Source: Skeletonema tropicum
Taxonomy: Eukaryota > Bacillariophyta > Thalassiosirophyceae > Thalassiosirales > Thalassiosiraceae
Assembly (NCBI GenBank): GCA_037178625.1
Contig: CM074131.1
Span: 3,472,001 to 3,536,000 of the forward strand
Length of the DNA stretch: 64,000 nucleotides
Reading direction: 5' to 3'
Part shown: piece by piece, positions 1,108 through 8,665 of the stretch
How the letters are laid out: each line of letters starts with the position of its first letter
How positions within the stretch are numbered: position 1 is the first letter of the stretch
Program-made: the position numbers and the translations under genes
The notes under the pieces: generated by a model
The model's input: the letters and a program-made list of their open reading frames with translations, nothing else
What the model was told of the DNA's origin: nothing
Database searches by the model: none

Positions 1108-2817
1108 AGATCGGTACCATAAATAGCTGAAAAAGGCCATCATAATGGGCAAGCGCGCTGCCTGAAACAATACTGAACAATTCCGCAGGTTCATTGTCAT
1201 TGTTCGGTGCGACCATAATATAGACAAAAAAGTGTGTAATACTATCAGTAAAAAATTATTTTTCAGTTTGATCAAGAACAAAGGTGTATGATACATCATG
1301 ATGAAGGCAGAGGACGACGACATGATGAAGATAGCTCATGCTGGTGCAGACAAAGATAAAAACAACGACGACGACAACTCGATCACACCGACTGAAGCTT
1401 CTTCCACAGACACTTCAGATATTGATGAGGACACTGACATTCCGGCCGACACGTCATCTTCTCCTTCGATAGCAAAACCGCCAACAGTAACTGTTCTAGT
1501 TGCTATTCTTGCAGTGCTGGCGGCTACATCAAGCAGAGAACATGCTGTTTCGTTCTTTACGTGGTACCTCGCTACATTAGAAGCAGCTCCATTAACCACA
1601 AAATGTGTAACTGGTGCTGTACTTGCGCTTGTAGGCGATTACTGTGCTCAGTGGTTTGAATGCACAAGTGAAGAACAGCAGCAGAGGCAGGAGCACAACA
1701 TGTTGTATGAATGCAATTCCATACTTCAGAATACCGCCAGTTTACTCTCCATACGCGGCAAGTATGATTACCGTCGGGGTTGGGCAACCGTGTTAGAGAA
1801 CTTTCTCGTATCATGTCCTCTCCAGCACTATGCCTACGATTGCTTTGAATATATTTTGCCGGTAGAAAGTGGAAGCGAACTATATCGTTCCTTTGCGGCG
1901 ATGGTACACGTGCTTTTTGACTGTCTAGCACTAGATGCTGTGTTTGTGGCATCAGGAATCATCATCACGGGGTTATTTGAAGGGCACAGTCTCACCAACT
2001 ATGTACTACCCAATTTGAAGCGTACCTATTTCGCAGCTCTCCGAGCAGCTCTGATAACGAATCTATGTTTCGCTCCCGTGGAGTTTTTGTCATTCAGGTT
2101 CTTGCCACTTTCACTGCGTGTTTTGAGTGTAAATGGTGTAGACTTGGTATGGAATGGAGTTGTCAGTTTTGCCTCCCATGGTGGAGCTGTGGTTGAACAA
2201 GCTGCTGCTTAAATGCTGTTGCTGCCTTGTGAAGTTGTTACAGTGTCTATTTGGATGTAGAATATACGTTGCAGGATGTGCCTAATTTATTAATACATTG
2301 ATGTTCAAAGTCATTACAACACGCTCAACCTGCACAATATCAGATGTTTGCCACAACATCGGAGACGAACATGACTAGCCAAGCTGCTGTCAGCGCTTTC
2401 AAGGCTGGGTTGCAGTCCAATAGAAGCCCGTTAAAGAACACGACTGCCGTGAGGAAGTTCAAGACTGTGCGCCTTGCTTGCTCTTCGTCTCCAGAGTCAA
2501 ATATCCATAGGAATAGAAGCAAAACTACCAGAATAGAAAACAGGAAACGGAATACTGAGATGGCAACACGCAAGACTTCGTTCTCCGCTTTCCATCCTTC
2601 ATCTTTTTGCTTCAGTTTGGCCTGAAGCCTGTGAACCGTCTTCTCTTGTTCTTTCAGTTGGGCAAGGGTGCGAGCTGCATTTGAGCAGGTCTTATCAATT
2701 ACTACATTCTTGTTTCGGATCTGCCTTCCGAGTCGACGAATCTCATGTTTGTGTGAGTTGACATTCTCAGTGGAATACTGCAAGTCAGAACGGAGATCTT
2801 CAATGACTGTTTCCGTT
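1108..2817. repeat. Duplicated flank, copy 1 (about 1.7 kb)
   Basis: This block recurs at 6950-8665. It contains 190 bp of 5' flank, a whole Mpv17-family gene and the 3' part of a convergent RING gene. The differences I found by eye are one substitution about 100 bp from the left end and a 6-bp insertion in copy 2. Copy 1 is joined to unique DNA on its left and to the retroelement on its right. Copy 2 has the opposite arrangement, which is the geometry of a target-site duplication. Confidence 0.95.
1298..2212 (+). CDS. Mpv17/PMP22-family membrane protein, copy 1
   Basis: The predicted protein has 304 residues. An acidic, low-complexity N-terminus (about 60 residues rich in Asp, Ser and Thr) precedes a hydrophobic segment. 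The family landmarks follow: W-Y-L-x-x-L-x-x-x-P-L-T-T-K, then G-D-Y-C-A-Q, then the R-R-G-W...P-L-Q-H-Y-A-Y region, a further membrane segment, and a C-terminal W-N-G-V-V-S-F. Mpv17/PMP22 proteins are four-helix membrane proteins of mitochondria, peroxisomes or plastids, thought to form channels. An insert of about 30 residues after the GDxxxQ motif (E-E-Q-Q-Q-R-Q rich) is longer than usual. The gene is duplicated at 7140-8060; this copy lacks the extra Leu-Arg present there. The start is the first of two adjacent ATGs, and a second Met pair follows closely. Confidence 0.82.
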   Translation: MMKAEDDDMMKIAHAGADKDKNNDDDNSITPTEASSTDTSDIDEDTDIPADTSSSPSIAKPPTVTVLVAILAVLAATSSREHAVSFFTWYLATLEAAPLTTKCVTGAVLALVGDYCAQWFECTSEEQQQRQEHNMLYECNSILQNTASLLSIRGKYDYRRGWATVLENFLVSCPLQHYAYDCFEYILPVESGSELYRSFAAMVHVLFDCLALDAVFVASGIIITGLFEGHSLTNYVLPNLKRTYFAALRAALITNLCFAPVEFLSFRFLPLSLRVLSVNGVDLVWNGVVSFASHGGAVVEQAAA

Positions 2818-2849
2818 GCTCCTCCCGGCAGCTCAGCTCGGGAGAGCAA
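2340..2849 (-). pseudogene. RING/coiled-coil membrane protein, 5'-truncated copy fused to retroelement
   Basis: This is the C-terminal half of the gene that is intact at 8188-9126. It keeps part of the coiled coil and the C-terminal membrane segments but loses the RING finger and about 155 N-terminal residues. Homology stops at 2817, exactly where the Penelope-like element begins. The remaining open frame continues into the element and acquires an ATG at 2847-2849 from its terminal repeat, giving a chimeric frame of 169 residues whose first 11 codons are retroelement sequence. It may be an untranscribed remnant, or it could make a membrane-anchored coiled coil without ligase activity. Confidence 0.85.
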
Positions 2850-3100
2850 AAGCTTCTCCTGTCTGAAAAGACATTGAACCGCGTCTGAAAAAGACGTTCA
2901 CTTCTCCGTTCATTTCATTTTTCTCCGTTCACCATACAAAAGATTCATTAGAACAGCCCGCTCCTGGGGCTGTCTCACGTTGACACTTGCCGATGAAGGT
3001 CTAACCGAAACGAGTTCATTACATACTCTACTCGTTCAAGTAATTAACGTCCTAATCTAAGTTGAAAAATATTGTATCATCACTTTCAAATCATACAGAT
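2825..3100 (+). repeat. Terminal direct repeat (pseudo-LTR) A of the Penelope-like element
   Basis: This 276-bp repeat matches 6682-6953 base for base except for ATAC present here in the loop of the hammerhead-like stem III. It begins with CCGGCAGCTCAGCTCGGG and ends with CATACAGAT. Weak homology may extend left to 2818 (GCTCCTC against GCTGCCTT). ORF1 starts 13 bp past its end, so repeat A is also the likely leader and promoter region of the element. Confidence 0.93.
2977..3050 (+). ncRNA. Hammerhead-ribozyme-like fold in repeat A
   Basis: The layout matches a type I hammerhead. Stem I pairs ACGTT (2977-2981) with AACGT (3046-3050) and ACTTG (2985-2989) with CAAGT (3037-3041), separated by an internal loop GAC/AATT. 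The core is CCGATGA (2990-2996), stem II is GGT-CTA-ACC (2998-3006), GAAA lies at 3007-3010, and stem III pairs CGAG (3011-3014) with CTCG (3031-3034). The expected cleavage site follows TT at 3035-3036. Two departures from consensus are visible: C instead of U at core position 4, and an extra A before stem II. Penelope-like elements are known to carry type I hammerheads in their pseudo-LTRs, which supports the call. Activity may be weak. Confidence 0.55.
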
Positions 3101-3112
3101 TGTATCAACATC

Positions 3113-4579
3113 ATGACAAACAATAGTACAGCGTCCAGGGCCACCAAACGGAGATCCACCAGTAGCGACAGGAGCTCTTCTAAGAAGACCGATAATGGCA
3201 ACCCAGCCGACATCTCCGCCACTGTTGAATCAGCCATGAAAGGCCTCCCACCTGCCATTGCGCAGGCATGTCCAGGCCTTACAAAATCCCTCGAGACGCT
3301 TCCACCTAGATTAATTTCGGTACTCATAGCTCATCTGAAAGCTATGCGCAGCGATACTGATAAAATCAATCAGAAAGCCGCGGCCATCGATGACTTCAAA
3401 AACAAAAAAGTCACTATCGACGGCAAAGAACACCCGTACCAACCTAATTCGATCCAACGTCAACAACCTTTGACCCTCCCTGCCATCCTAAAGAGTAATG
3501 AAGAAGCAACCGGATTGGTAGAGGAAGCAAGAAAATTGCAGCTGGAACTCAACGCTAAACTTGCGGAGAAAGCGCAACGACTTGCCGAATTAGGTCTACA
3601 AGAGTATCGCGAACTACGCCTCCAAAAACTGTTGGAAGCATTGTTTGAGACCTCTTATGTTCTAACTGAGGTTTGGAAATACCTCAATCCAACCTCTACC
3701 CTAAGCACATCTGAGCTAGCCCTCTTAGCCTGCGTCAAGGTCTTTGATGCATCTACCGGAGACTTTAAGGGGGAAGAGCTGAAGGAACTACAACCATCGT
3801 TAACTTTAGCTGATCTGCAAACTAAGCTCACTACCACCGCCAACAACCATCCTTTCCACGACAAAGATGTCATCCTGAACATCAACGGTATTATTAGTAA
3901 TGGCTATTCCATGGACAACGATGACCCATTCACTACCCGTATCAAGGAAACTATTGGGCCGCTCATCTATAATATTTCCATCGGTGCCTGGAAGAACATT
4001 AAGAAAGCGGAGGTGCAGAAAACAAATAATGCCGACATCGATGCTCTTTTCAAAAAGAAAGAGACCGCCAAAGCCAATGAGCGTTTAAGTGAAGCTATGG
4101 ATGTCGATGGTGATGATGAAAAACTAACTGATCGGATTAAGAGGATTGCCCGAGAGGAAATCAAAAGGGGCAAACGCAAAGAAGAAGCTAAAGAAAGAAA
4201 AAAATCTTCGGCTCGAGGCGAGCAAGCCCAGCCTCGAAAAGCCGGAAATGGGCGGAATACAAGCGATCAGTCAAGAAGCAAGAACAAGAACCGCACATCA
4301 TCCAAGAAACAGTCAGGCGGCTCGCGTACCAACTCAACCAAGCAGCAACAGCGCTCCATCCTAAGGAAGGCCAACCTCCGCTGGCAGAAAGAATACTCAG
4401 ACAAGGAAGAAGAGGAGAACTACACCAGCGAAGAAGAGGAGGAAGATTCCGACGACGACAGCCGCAGCAGCAAATCATCCCGACGCTCAAGAAAATCCTA
4501 CCACCGGGATGGAAACCAAAGAAGCCGTCGAGGCGGATCCAACAACGCAGGACGAAGAGGAAGAGGAAGAAGGAATTAG
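3113..4579 (+). CDS. Penelope-like element ORF1 protein
   Basis: From the ATG at 3113 this frame gives 488 residues; a TTG codon 17 positions upstream also lies in frame but is a less likely start. The N-terminus is Ser/Lys/Arg rich. The middle is predicted to be helical, with a heptad-like stretch (V-E-E-A-R-K-L-Q-L-E-L and following) at about residues 140-190. The C-terminal 130 residues are a low-complexity Lys/Arg/Ser/Glu tail that probably binds nucleic acid. I recognise no domain. Its likely role is an RNA-binding structural partner of the RT. The tail overlaps the RT frame, and the frameshift signal at 4198-4253 would divert some ribosomes into RT before the tail is made. Confidence 0.75.
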   Translation: MTNNSTASRATKRRSTSSDRSSSKKTDNGNPADISATVESAMKGLPPAIAQACPGLTKSLETLPPRLISVLIAHLKAMRSDTDKINQKAAAIDDFKNKKVTIDGKEHPYQPNSIQRQQPLTLPAILKSNEEATGLVEEARKLQLELNAKLAEKAQRLAELGLQEYRELRLQKLLEALFETSYVLTEVWKYLNPTSTLSTSELALLACVKVFDASTGDFKGEELKELQPSLTLADLQTKLTTTANNHPFHDKDVILNINGIISNGYSMDNDDPFTTRIKETIGPLIYNISIGAWKNIKKAEVQKTNNADIDALFKKKETAKANERLSEAMDVDGDDEKLTDRIKRIAREEIKRGKRKEEAKERKKSSARGEQAQPRKAGNGRNTSDQSRSKNKNRTSSKKQSGGSRTNSTKQQQRSILRKANLRWQKEYSDKEEEENYTSEEEEEDSDDDSRSSKSSRRSRKSYHRDGNQRSRRGGSNNAGRRGRGRRN

Positions 4580-6642
4580 AAAGAGAGTACCACTTTGAAC
4601 ACTCTCTCCACCACCGTACAATTAATAAAGTAAATCAATTCAGAGAAGAACAAAAAAATCTCTTTGGATTCTGTGCCGACCCAGATAAATCATTGCGGTC
4701 CAACATTGACGACTACATCCAATCCATCACCGTCCATCAATACTTATCTCAACCAATAAACGCTGCCTGCCATATCTACTACGATGGTAATCGCCCACTC
4801 CCCCTTGGACTCAAAAAGTTCTTGGGCTTGGGATTAAAGTTCTGCATCCAACATAAGCAACCAACAAACAACCTAAAACATTCAATCAGTCGCTTTGAGA
4901 ATGATATCCGAAACCGATACGCCTTCCTTGATAAGCCTGAAAGAGAAGGAGACTACATTCCTAAACTCTACATTCCTACCGGTCATGAGTTCAAGCCTGC
5001 AAGTGTTGAAGTTGAAACTGCTTTATCAAACTTCACCAAAGCCGTCACATCTCTTCAACGCCGCTACCGCCGTAAACGCTGTACAAATATGACTCCACTT
5101 CAATGGCGCACGATGGATGCTCTCCAAAAAGATCATCACTTCATCGTAATCGAAGGTGATAAGAATACCGGTGCGTGTCTTCTGCGAAGAGGCTTCTACA
5201 ACAAGAGCGCCTGTACTGATCACCTCAGTAATACGAATGTGTACCAACGAATCAGCCGTCAAGAAGCAATGCAAATGAATAATATCCTCCGCTATAAAAT
5301 TGCCCTCTTCTGTCAAAAACACAAGATGTCAATGTCTAAAGCCGAGCAAGACTACCTTAAGCGCTCGCAATCTGAGAAACTGTTCCCAACAAACAAGTTT
5401 GCTCGATTCCGTATGACGCTGAAAGTGCATAAAAAGAAGCCCTACAAGTTCCGTCCAATTGTATGCTGCGCAGGTACATTCATGAACTGCCTTAGCAAGT
5501 GGGTCGACTACCATCTCCAACAACTGAAACAATTCATCCCATCGTACCTCAAAGATAGTGGCAGCCTACTCGACAGTCTCCAGTCATTCCACCGCCTTCC
5601 CTTCAATGCAAGACTATTTACAGCAGATGCGCAATCTATGTATACTAACATCGACACAGATCATGCGCTCCAAGTCATCAGCAACTGGCTCGATGAATTA
5701 GCCTCCTCCGGTAAACTAGCAAGCAATGGACTCTCCTCCTTTCCTATTGCCGCAATCAAAGAAGCTCTTTCGCTAGTCATGAAAAACAACATCTTCGAAT
5801 TTGGTGATATGTACTTCAAACAACTAACTGGTACAGCAATGGGAACTAGTGCAGCATGTATGTGGGCTACAATCTACTTTGCAATCCATGAAGAATTCCT
5901 CCTTAATAAATATTCCAATGATCTCCTCCTCTACAAGCGTTTCATCGACGATATGAAAGGAATATGGATTGGTACCAACCTACGATATGCACAATTTCAA
6001 TATGATACTGATAACTTCGGATCCCTACGATGGGACTTTGAGCCCCTATCAACATCTGTTAACTTCCTCGATCTCACTATCACCATTGGACCATCGCAAC
6101 AAATTCAAACACGTACATTCCAAAAAGCCTGCAATCTCTACCAATATCTCCCGCCGCATTCAGCACACTCTCCACAAATTATGAAAGGTGTCACCTACAG
6201 TCTATTGCGTCAGTACAAGCGCCAAAACTCCCTTGAATCTGACTACATCAATCAATCTAAATTACTCTTCAAAAGACTAGTACAACGCGGCTGGGACTCA
6301 CACGTCATCAAGCAGTACATCCTACAAGCAGATGCACGCCTACGATCTATCGAATCAAATGCAAACGCAATACAACAACCAACAAAGCCTACTCTTACCA
6401 ACAAAGAATTGGCCATCCTCCACTGGACATTCCATCCAAATGATATCCCTCGTAAACTACTTCGGTGTCTCTACGACACCCACTGCAAAGAAGTCTTCGA
6501 ACAAGATCTACGAATTCAGAAGTTTATTATTGCCTATCATGGAGCCCCAACGATACGATCAGCTGTGACGAAAGCAAAACTGATACAAGAACCCGGCAAA
6601 GAGGCCAGTAAGTATTTTGATGGGGAGCCCGATCCTGACTGA
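4192..6642 (+). CDS. Penelope-like reverse transcriptase, read in the -1 frame of ORF1
   Basis: The frame opens right after a TAA at 4189-4191 and stays open to 6642, so it overlaps ORF1 by 388 bases. Conserved protein starts well before the first in-frame ATG (about 5090): the Penelope-type G-L-K-F motif is at 4831-4842. RT landmarks follow: K-V-H-K-K-K...F-R-P-I-V, the catalytic Asp of motif A at 5626-5628 within F-T-A-D-A-Q-S-M-Y-T-N-I, G-T-A-M-G-T-S in motif B, the F-I-D-D catalytic pair at 5941-5952, and F-L-D-L-T-I. The protein ends shortly after a K-A-K-L motif, where other Penelope proteins continue into GIY-YIG, so no endonuclease is present. With no usable ATG, expression most likely depends on -1 frameshifting from ORF1. 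The product would be an ORF1-RT fusion of about 1,180 residues. Confidence 0.85.
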   Translation, partial: RKKKIFGSRRASPASKSRKWAEYKRSVKKQEQEPHIIQETVRRLAYQLNQAATALHPKEGQPPLAERILRQGRRGELHQRRRGGRFRRRQPQQQIIPTLKKILPPGWKPKKPSRRIQQRRTKRKRKKELEREYHFEHSLHHRTINKVNQFREEQKNLFGFCADPDKSLRSNIDDYIQSITVHQYLSQPINAACHIYYDGNRPLPLGLKKFLGLGLKFCIQHKQPTNNLKHSISRFENDIRNRYAFLDKPEREGDYIPKLYIPTGHEFKPASVEVETALSNFTKAVTSLQRRYRRKRCTNMTPLQWRTMDALQKDHHFIVIEGDKNTGACLLRRGFYNKSACTDHLSNTNVYQRISRQEAMQMNNILRYKIALFCQKHKMSMSKAEQDYLKRSQSEKLFPTNKFARFRMTLKVHKKKPYKFRPIVCCAGTFMNCLSKWVDYHLQQLKQFIPSYLKDSGSLLDSLQSFHRLPFNARLFTADAQSMYTNIDTDHALQVISNWLDELASSGKLASNGLSSFPIAAIKEALSLVMKNNIFEFGDMYFKQLTGTAMGTSAACMWATIYFAIHEEFLLNKYSNDLLLYKRFIDDMKGIWIGTNLRYAQFQYDTDNFGSLRWDFEPLSTSVNFLDLTITIGPSQQIQTRTFQKACNLYQYLPPHSAHSPQIMKGVTYSLLRQYKRQNSLESDYINQSKLLFKRLVQRGWDSHVIKQYILQADARLRSIESNANAIQQPTKPTLTNKELAILHWTFHPNDIPRKLLRCLYDTHCKEVFEQDLRIQKFIIAYHGAPTIRSAVTKAKLIQEPGKEASKYFDGEPDPD
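4198..4253 (+). promoter_or_regulatory. Candidate -1 programmed ribosomal frameshift signal (slippery site plus pseudoknot)
   Basis: A_AAA_AAA lies at 4198-4204 in the correct phase for ORF1 codons. After a 9-nt spacer, CGAGGC (4214-4219) pairs with GCCTCG (4231-4236). The loop segment GCCCA (4226-4230) can pair with TGGGC (4249-4253), giving an H-type pseudoknot with an A-rich third loop (4237-4248). GGCT (4210-4213) with AGCC (4240-4243) offers an alternative extended hairpin. The -1 frame opens at 4192, six bases before the heptamer, and encodes the reverse transcriptase. Confidence 0.75.
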
Positions 6643-6661
6643 TCGAGCTCCCCTCCTTTTA

Positions 6662-6703
6662 CTCTCCCGAGGAGCTGCCTTCCGGCAGCTCAGCTCGGGA
6701 GAG
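6662..6703 (+). other. Strong hairpin at the junction of RT gene and terminal repeat B
   Basis: CTCTCCCGAG (6662-6671) pairs with CTCGGGAGAG (6694-6703) and GAGCTGCC (6672-6679) pairs with GGCAGCTC (6684-6691), leaving a TTCC loop and a 2-nt bulge. It starts 20 bases after the RT stop. In repeat A only the right half is present, so the left end of the inserted element falls near the apex of this hairpin. Confidence 0.85.
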
Positions 6704-6953
6704 CAAAAGCTTCTCCTGTCTGAAAAGACATTGAACCGCGTCTGAAAAAGACGTTCACTTCTCCGTTCATTTCATTTTTCTCCGTTCACCATACAAAAGA
6801 TTCATTAGAACAGCCCGCTCCTGGGGCTGTCTCACGTTGACACTTGCCGATGAAGGTCTAACCGAAACGAGTTCATTACTCTACTCGTTCAAGTAATTAA
6901 CGTCCTAATCTAAGTTGAAAAATATTGTATCATCACTTTCAAATCATACAGAT
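6682..6953 (+). repeat. Terminal direct repeat (pseudo-LTR) B of the Penelope-like element
   Basis: This 272-bp copy of repeat A ends in AGAT, which is shared with the first bases of the duplicated host block. It lies about 190 bp upstream of the second Mpv17-family gene, so any promoter in the repeat could drive that copy. Confidence 0.93.
6834..6903 (+). ncRNA. Hammerhead-ribozyme-like fold in repeat B
   Basis: The architecture is the same as in repeat A, with predicted cleavage after 6889. The only difference is a 4-nt shorter loop on stem III, which leaves every stem and core base unchanged. The same non-consensus C at core position 4 and the extra A before stem II are present. Confidence 0.55.
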
Positions 6954-8665
6954 CGGTACCATAAATAGCTGAAAAAGGCCATCATAATGGGCAAGCGCGC
7001 TGCCTGAAAGAATACTGAACAATTCCGCAGGTTCATTGTCATTGTTCGGTGCGACCATAATATAGACAAAAAAGTGTGTAATACTATCAGTAAAAAATTA
7101 TTTTTCAGTTTGATCAAGAACAAAGGTGTATGATACATCATGATGAAGGCAGAGGACGACGACATGATGAAGATAGCTCATGCTGGTGCAGACAAAGATA
7201 AAAACAACGACGACGACAACTCGATCACACCGACTGAAGCTTCTTCCACAGACACTTCAGATATTGATGAGGACACTGACATTCCGGCCGACACGTCATC
7301 TTCTCCTTCGATAGCAAAACCGCCAACAGTAACTGTTCTAGTTGCTATTCTTGCAGTGCTGGCGGCTACATCAAGCAGAGAACATGCTGTTTCGTTCTTT
7401 ACGTGGTACCTCGCTACATTAGAAGCAGCTCCATTAACCACAAAATGTGTAACTGGTGCTGTACTTGCGCTTGTAGGCGATTACTGTGCTCAGTGGTTTG
7501 AATGCACAAGTGAAGAACAGCAGCAGAGGCAGGAGCACAACATGTTGTATGAATGCAATTCCATACTTCAGAATACCGCCAGTTTACTCTCCATACGCGG
7601 CAAGTATGATTACCGTCGGGGTTGGGCAACCGTGTTAGAGAACTTTCTCGTATCATGTCCTCTCCAGCACTATGCCTACGATTGCTTTGAATATATTTTG
7701 CCGGTAGAAAGTGGAAGCGAACTATATCGTTCCTTTGCGGCGATGGTACACGTGCTTTTTGACTGTCTAGCACTAGATGCTGTGTTTGTGGCATCAGGAA
7801 TCATCATCACGGGGTTATTTGAAGGGCACAGTCTCACCAACTATGTACTACCCAATTTGAAGCGTACCTATTTCGCAGCTCTCCGACTCCGAGCAGCTCT
7901 GATAACGAATCTATGTTTCGCTCCCGTGGAGTTTTTGTCATTCAGGTTCTTGCCACTTTCACTGCGTGTTTTGAGTGTAAATGGTGTAGACTTGGTATGG
8001 AATGGAGTTGTCAGTTTTGCCTCCCATGGTGGAGCTGTGGTTGAACAAGCTGCTGCTTAAATGCTGTTGCTGCCTTGTGAAGTTGTTACAGTGTCTATTT
8101 GGATGTAGAATATACGTTGCAGGATGTGCCTAATTTATTAATACATTGATGTTCAAAGTCATTACAACACGCTCAACCTGCACAATATCAGATGTTTGCC
8201 ACAACATCGGAGACGAACATGACTAGCCAAGCTGCTGTCAGCGCTTTCAAGGCTGGGTTGCAGTCCAATAGAAGCCCGTTAAAGAACACGACTGCCGTGA
8301 GGAAGTTCAAGACTGTGCGCCTTGCTTGCTCTTCGTCTCCAGAGTCAAATATCCATAGGAATAGAAGCAAAACTACCAGAATAGAAAACAGGAAACGGAA
8401 TACTGAGATGGCAACACGCAAGACTTCGTTCTCCGCTTTCCATCCTTCATCTTTTTGCTTCAGTTTGGCCTGAAGCCTGTGAACCGTCTTCTCTTGTTCT
8501 TTCAGTTGGGCAAGGGTGCGAGCTGCATTTGAGCAGGTCTTATCAATTACTACATTCTTGTTTCGGATCTGCCTTCCGAGTCGACGAATCTCATGTTTGT
8601 GTGAGTTGACATTCTCAGTGGAATACTGCAAGTCAGAACGGAGATCTTCAATGACTGTTTCCGTT
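6950..8665. repeat. Duplicated flank, copy 2 (about 1.7 kb)
   Basis: Partner of 1108-2817. It begins at the AGAT microhomology at the end of repeat B and runs without a break into the intact 5' half of the RING gene. A 6-bp tandem duplication (CTCCGA) inside the Mpv17 gene is the only indel seen relative to copy 1. Confidence 0.95.
7140..8060 (+). CDS. Mpv17/PMP22-family membrane protein, copy 2
   Basis: This 306-residue protein is identical to the product of 1298-2212 except for an in-frame Leu-Arg insertion within F-A-A-L-R-L-R-A-A-L-I. The membrane segments and the W-Y-L...P-L-T-T, G-D-Y-C-A-Q and W-N-G-V motifs are unchanged. Only about 190 bp of the original 5' flank remains; beyond that lies the retroelement repeat, so regulation probably differs from copy 1. 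The two bases of evidence for recent duplication are near identity at silent sites and the shared 3' flank. Confidence 0.82.
   Translation: MMKAEDDDMMKIAHAGADKDKNNDDDNSITPTEASSTDTSDIDEDTDIPADTSSSPSIAKPPTVTVLVAILAVLAATSSREHAVSFFTWYLATLEAAPLTTKCVTGAVLALVGDYCAQWFECTSEEQQQRQEHNMLYECNSILQNTASLLSIRGKYDYRRGWATVLENFLVSCPLQHYAYDCFEYILPVESGSELYRSFAAMVHVLFDCLALDAVFVASGIIITGLFEGHSLTNYVLPNLKRTYFAALRLRAALITNLCFAPVEFLSFRFLPLSLRVLSVNGVDLVWNGVVSFASHGGAVVEQAAA

Follow-up and report, generated by a model that had tools for sequence, protein, structure and literature searches.

Introduction

Telomerase is the expected kin of the reverse transcriptases (RTs) of Penelope-like elements. Among these elements, those of the endonuclease-deficient Athena/Coprina type encode an RT without a detected endonuclease (EN), carry further ORFs besides the RT and are telomeric. 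The element analyzed here, located in a window of 64,000 nucleotides from Skeletonema tropicum with its parts described below on the plus strand, resembles that type in that no EN was detected beside its RT and additional ORFs are present. It differs in position, since neither the window copy nor any of the long copies on large contigs is telomeric, all of them being internal. To our knowledge, no -1 frameshift linking ORF1 to the RT has been described for Athena, and we know of no settled account of how the ratio between the RT and the other protein of Penelope-like elements is controlled. Slippery heptamers for -1 frameshifting follow the rule X_XXY_YYZ, read in the phase of the zero frame.

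With canonical Penelope/Poseidon elements, such as the Poseidon of Anolis, the window element shares the telomerase-like RT, the pLTRs, tandem copies (seen in its relative L077) and candidate hammerhead-like motifs. Unlike those elements, which have a GIY-YIG endonuclease and a single ORF, it has two overlapping ORFs and a putative -1 shift, and no GIY-YIG was found (PMC11167929). The layout of the window element is also that of retroviral and LTR-retrotransposon gag-pol, namely an upstream ORF, an RT in the -1 frame, a slippery heptamer and a 3' pseudoknot at 8-9 nt, and 5-9 nt are the heptamer-to-structure spacers most often studied (PMC5009743). The differences from gag-pol are that the RT is of the Penelope/telomerase type, that protease, RNase H and integrase found no match in Pfam, and that ORF1 has no detectable capsid fold, as judged from a low-confidence model (AF2; pLDDT 58, best PDB match with E 0.69). 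Given this low confidence, the fold suggested by this model was rejected.

Among the papers listed for the literature covered here, we recognized none with an account of frameshifting between the ORFs of a Penelope-like element. One report whose abstract mentions both Penelope-like elements and a frameshift (PMC4465651) is not a precedent, as its text concerns frameshift mutations. What is proposed below would be a known mechanism in a class of elements for which we know of no case, and we claim no priority.

The Element and Its Reverse Transcriptase

The element is bounded by pLTR-like terminal direct repeats of the Penelope-like type, the left one at 2821..3100 and its partner at 6678..6953, the two matching over blocks of 202 and 77 nt with 100% identity. 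Its sequence is that of a recently active-looking Penelope-like retroelement, and the relative L077 consists of two tandem copies. Within its own genome (78 Mb, 125 contigs) the element has 46 DNA matches, several of them fragments of single insertions; 36 of the 46 stop within 6 nt of the 3' end of the query and their start points vary, which is the pattern expected of 5'-truncated, target-primed copies. The window copy lies internally, at 3.475 of 4.72 Mb on its contig, as do the copies on contigs C16, C4 and C8; contig C76, of 30 kb, is uninformative on telomeric versus internal position.

ORF1 extends over 3113..4579 (ATG at 3113, stop at 4577-4579) and encodes 488 amino acids, predicted to form long helices followed by a low-confidence tail, rich in Lys, Arg, Ser and Gly, from about residue 365. 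It has no Pfam or NCBIfam match above cut-off. The RT occupies an open frame of 816 codons at 4192..6642, in -1 relative to ORF1. No match was found when its sequence was compared with the PDB, but the 12 best PDB matches of its structural model (pLDDT 87) are all telomerases, with E values from 1.8e-8 to 4.9e-7, although with low TM-scores (0.34-0.42 by query) and with other polymerases close behind. These matches of the predicted fold speak for the Penelope-like identity assigned earlier from the sequence. Moreover, D333, D441 and the motif GTAMG are invariant, and D440 nearly so, among 40 RT sequences. RVT_1 found no match in the window RT and matched one of 20 aligned members, RT relatives carry precomputed PF28514/PF26215 annotations, and the GIY-YIG endonuclease had no Pfam match in ORF1, in the RT or in the 20 aligned RTs.

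A Dual-Coding Overlap with a Constant -1 Offset

The two frames overlap at 4192..4579, a stretch of 388 nt in which both are open and the -1 frame holds neither a stop nor an ATG. The RT frame begins at 4192, immediately past a TAA at 4189-4191, runs to 6642, and has its earliest methionine at residue 300, deep within the RT, in agreement with the earlier statement that no ATG precedes the conserved N-terminal motif. To evaluate whether such openness is remarkable, ORF1 was shuffled synonymously, i.e., the protein was kept and synonymous codons were redrawn from the same ORF1. Across the last 80 codons of ORF1, the -1 frame has 0 stops against 6.6 expected (P 0.0003), while the +1 frame was unremarkable in the same test, as expected. 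When the procedure was calibrated, P fell below 0.05 in 1 of 26 upstream ORF1 blocks (in L079, adjoining its overlap) and in 3 of 63 RT-only blocks.

The same arrangement was found in every family with a readable overlap. Family B (L062), from the same genome as the family of the window element (family A), has its ORF1 at 1395-2816 and its RT at 2492-4876, in -1, with A_AAA_AAA at 2549. A and B are far apart: their RTs are 33-35% identical (33% past the overlap by BLASTP), and BLASTP between their ORF1 proteins, with low-complexity segments masked, gave nothing significant (E 0.19). An unmasked local alignment does span both ORF1s with a score of 190, so that the two proteins may be distant kin. 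A scan of prokaryote genome contigs provided five more elements on contigs of metagenome-assembled genomes (MAGs) and a sixth from one of those MAGs, contigs that are probably eukaryotic contamination. No relatives were found in viral contigs or in phage records.

Eight families were counted in total (A, B, L077, L078, L079, L080, L081 and L082), the ORF1 of L080 and L082 running off the contig. No ORF1-RT junction is left in L055, L061, L063 and L064, which were dropped: L063 and L064 are 5'-truncated members of a broken third family, L061 is a decayed ORF1 fragment without the slip region, and L055 is truncated. Families D and E of the same genome lie outside the count. The RT frame is -1 in all eight families (nine of nine elements with the tandem copy of L077), with an ORF1 overlap of 83-165 codons. 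RT identities across the eight families are 25-44%. The -1 frame is open across the last 80 ORF1 codons in all nine elements, and the product of the P values over the eight families is 10^-22.5, with one family at 0/4000 entered as 0.5/4000. An ATG in the -1 frame is absent from all nine overlaps, although a scarcity of Cys and Trp in the ORF1 tails favors this absence anyway. In addition, a basic RT-frame motif common to families A and B, WK.KKPSRR.QR, sits upstream of the ORF1 stop.

Judged from these sequences, selection is keeping the -1 frame open in the overlap. The constrained open frame, the lack of ATG and the presence of an RT motif before the ORF1 stop together count against an origin of the overlap by chance in these elements, and against translation of their RT by termination-reinitiation or AUG initiation. 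The best-supported reading, and in our judgment a very probable one, is that programmed -1 ribosomal frameshifting generates an ORF1-RT fusion, probably with stimulation by a pseudoknot in family A. The RT would be made solely as this fusion: most ribosomes would read ORF1 to its stop at 4577-4579, while for a minority a slip of one base backwards on A_AAA_AAA (4198-4204) would lead into the RT frame, which they would then read to 6642. The outcome would be many ORF1 proteins, with an RNA-binding or structural part to play, and few ORF1-RT proteins, similar to the ratio of Gag to Gag-Pol. That the shift takes place on the ribosome and at 4198-4204, that the pseudoknot stimulates it, and what ORF1 does are all inferences.

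The Putative Slip Site

The heptamer A_AAA_AAA at 4198..4204, in ORF1 phase (codons AGA|AAA|AAA, 4196-4204), is the sole in-phase X_XXY_YYZ anywhere in ORF1. By itself, the presence of a heptamer says little, since in-phase heptamers occur by chance in the overlap in a fraction of 0.53 (X_XXY_YYZ, Y=A/T) or 0.41 (A6N) of codon shuffles. An in-phase A_AAA_AAN is found in the overlaps of six of the eight families (A, B, L078, L079, L080 and L082), as A_AAA_AAC in L079 and L080. In L077, a weak C_CCA_AAA is present in one copy and lost in the tandem copy, A_AAG_GGC being present in both, and the L081 overlap has no heptamer. The count of families with a strong heptamer (7 of 8, P 0.05) was rejected as evidence, as it is expected from the Lys-rich composition. 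Also set aside was the substitution pattern between the two L077 copies, in which the changes are too few to place the shift.

The surrounding word is conserved between families A and B. A 15-nt word at 4197..4211, GAAAAAAATCTTCGG, occurs at both slip sites and is the longest word common to the 3.5-kb A and B elements, which outside it share no 14-mer. The word AAAAAAATCTTCGG has 29 matches in the genome, against 0 for the reversed control: 6 are in family A, 21 in family B (11 of these read, 10 assigned by their position 338 nt ahead of a family-B RT match) and 2 are unrelated. At the protein level, EAKERKKSSAR (ORF1 residues 358-368), in which KK represents the heptamer codons, is the most conserved 11-column window among four aligned proteins, with 9 of 11 columns invariant and an equally good result in 120 of 20,000 shuffles. 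The alignment comprised the window protein and P0121-P0123, P0122 and P0123 being without the first 77 residues; P0124, which also has RKKS, was not counted as independent because its sequence repeats the end of P0122. In the -1 frame, the 35-40 residues that follow KKIFG give no significant alignment between A and B (P 0.10), whereas the later part of the overlap does align (P 0.0005). The exact site of the shift is likely to be 4198-4204.

The heptamer is also unchanged in all six family-A copies that cover the region, but these copies (99% similar) are too alike to be taken as evidence of conservation. One of the six, on C8, has ORF1 and RT fused through a 1-nt indel near 4273-4284. The sequence-only reading had held that related elements with ORF1 and RT in one continuous frame would speak against a frameshift; this copy is such a case, but it also has a TAA in the RT, and it is missing about 180 nt at the start of the query. 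For family B, where 65 of 192 candidates were scored, the copies listed have open frames of at most 855 codons, so that none of them is fused. In one C76 copy, a single nucleotide is inserted at 4471. Within the AAG-rich part of the overlap, the window copy has six extra bases (4279-4284) that are absent from the other copies read and leave both frames unaffected; the C8 copy lacks five of these six columns.

RNA Structure Downstream of the Heptamer

The sequence past the heptamer can form an H-type pseudoknot. Stem 1 pairs 4213-4219 with 4231-4237 (spacer of 8-9 nt); its core pairs CGAGGC (4214-4219) with GCCTCG (4231-4236), leaving a 9-nt spacer at 4205-4213. Stem 2 pairs GCCCA (4226-4230) with TGGGC (4249-4253), and the A-rich loop 3 is AAAAGCCGGAAA. 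Heptamer, 9-nt spacer, both stems and A-rich loop had been described before, and direct reading of the sequence places them where they had been placed, to the base. In a simple stacking model, H-type pseudoknots of equal or greater strength number 6 in 64 kb on both strands, the one at 4213-4253 included; the probability that one lies by chance within the 7 spacings allowed for any one heptamer is approximately 3e-4 in this simplified model. Of 291 positions tested along the element, 1 reached the score of the pseudoknot at the heptamer.

The minimum free energy (MFE) fold is a different one, in which an outer stem that competes with the pseudoknot (4207-4212 with 4241-4246) extends the hairpin. 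Among 575 windows across ORF1 plus 200 nt, the 60 nt past the heptamer rank second in stability, behind only the same fold shifted by one base, yet their stability relative to local shuffles is modest (z -1.1 to -1.3). A shift stimulated by this extended 13-bp hairpin (4207-4246), or by local context, with the pseudoknot incidental, is a variant that is compatible with frameshifting as such. Besides the MFE fold, it is favored by the comparison of families, as the strict pseudoknot was not found in B, L077, L078, L079, L080 or L082; a pseudoknot common to all families was sought and not found, and a structure at 5-9 nt from the heptamer in the form of a pseudoknot is present in family A only. 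L078 (stability rank 489/564) and L082 (261/312) have no stable fold past the heptamer. In the others, the folds differ: B has a two-part hairpin from 5 nt past the heptamer (z -1.4 to -1.9, rank 198/541), L080 a stem from 6 nt (z -0.6 to -1.2, rank 5/380), the first L077 copy (L077a) ranks 11/458, and L079 ranks 41/549 with z of about 0. Nevertheless, the hairpin in family A begins 2 nt past the heptamer, below the 5-9 nt most often studied (PMC5009743), and the variant leaves a pseudoknot of this strength at the right spacing as a rare coincidence. We regard it as possible but the less favored of the two, and a pseudoknot stimulator in family A as plausible. The pause of the ribosome in this family would then most likely be set by the pseudoknot 8-9 nt downstream, with the competing outer stem already melted by the ribosome itself.

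Overall, the conservation of heptamer, spacer and stems in related elements, which had been suggested as a check, gives a mixed picture: the slip word is kept between A and B, but neither B nor the distant families yielded the pseudoknot, and the heptamer is absent from L081. The frameshift joining ORF1 to RT that had been proposed gains support from the -1 layout and the coding constraint in eight families, as well as from the A/B slip word.

Other Possible Routes to the Reverse Transcriptase

Alternatively, within the overlap, the RT could have its own start, at a non-AUG codon or by internal entry. In favor of this, the -1 frame stays open under constraint in that stretch, and non-AUG starts are compatible with the sequence. 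Moreover, the RT frame of five database relatives carries its own upstream ATG, as known here from their protein sequences: P0008, P0062, P0099, P0107 and P0118, of 120 listed, have a Met start 99-405 residues ahead of the conserved GF motif, a motif present in 42 of the 120. However, the overlaps of the nine elements have no ATG, and an independent start would leave unexplained both why the offset is -1, and never +1, in eight of eight families, and why the heptamer word is conserved between A and B. Such a start appears improbable.

Even less expected is slippage of a polymerase on the A run, by which a base would be added to some transcripts. Families A and B do have A7, and four others have runs of at least six A, but in L079 and L080 the run is A6C. 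Among the 27 slip-word matches in families A and B, A8 occurs once, and as the RT frame of that copy is still 794 codons long, a substituted rather than an inserted base probably accounts for this A8. In addition, three genome matches with A6 fall in none of the element matches listed. Finally, a spliced transcript joining ORF1 and RT, for which a GT..AG pair could in principle serve, is the least probable route, since splicing needs no dual-coding overlap, yet the overlap is kept open under constraint in eight families, and none of the six family-A copies over it has an intron-like deletion.

Scope and Implications of the Frameshift Reading

We cautiously lean towards the view that linking ORF1 to a telomerase-like RT through a -1 ribosomal frameshift may be an old strategy, shared by a whole branch of protist Penelope-like elements, which would bring Gag/Gag-Pol-like stoichiometry, ancestral or reinvented, to the third class of eukaryotic retroelements. 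Our reserve is mainly due to the five relatives whose RT frame has its own ATG upstream. The organisms named among the 120 listed RT relatives are two diatoms, Skeletonema menzelii and Thalassiosira exigua. A further RT family is present in the genome of the window element (G000 C7:596155-598248, C7:265416-267506 and C22:719332-721065); it lies outside the A and B matches and includes the best match to the L077 RT.

If the shift is real, Penelope-like elements of this kind apply the solution of retroviruses to a telomerase-type RT, and ORF1 would be a candidate for a Gag-like partner that is supplied as a fusion. The slip site would also be a simple aid to annotation, as an annotated RT may otherwise begin at a false internal site; P0002, P0003 and P0006, which begin downstream of the conserved GF motif, are possible examples.

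Terminal Motifs and Host Surroundings

Both terminal repeats contain a site of hammerhead-ribozyme-like topology, identified with a script search, at 2984..3042 (left) and 6841..6895 (right). Their core is the non-consensus CCGATGA, compared with CTGATGA (C at core position 4), and 20 shuffled windows gave 0 such sites. Rfam reported no hammerhead match at 2984-3042 or 6841-6895, and one match with E 3.1 elsewhere in the repeat, far under gathering. Near the junction of the tandem elements of L077 (~3730-3835), a hammerhead-like CTGACGA...GAAA site with a 54-nt loop was observed, likewise with no Rfam hammerhead match.

The element is flanked on both sides by a 1.7-kb host segment (1108-2817 and 6950-8665; 99.6% identity), which carries an Mpv17-like gene together with a partial RING-finger gene, the left RING copy being truncated by the element. 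This arrangement resembles a target-site duplication of unusual length, or a duplication that arose with the insertion. At the 3' end of the RT frame, a strong hairpin, GGGGAGCCCGATC...GATCGAGCTCCCC, lies across the RT stop codon at 6622-6653, where it may perhaps serve as a 3' recognition element.
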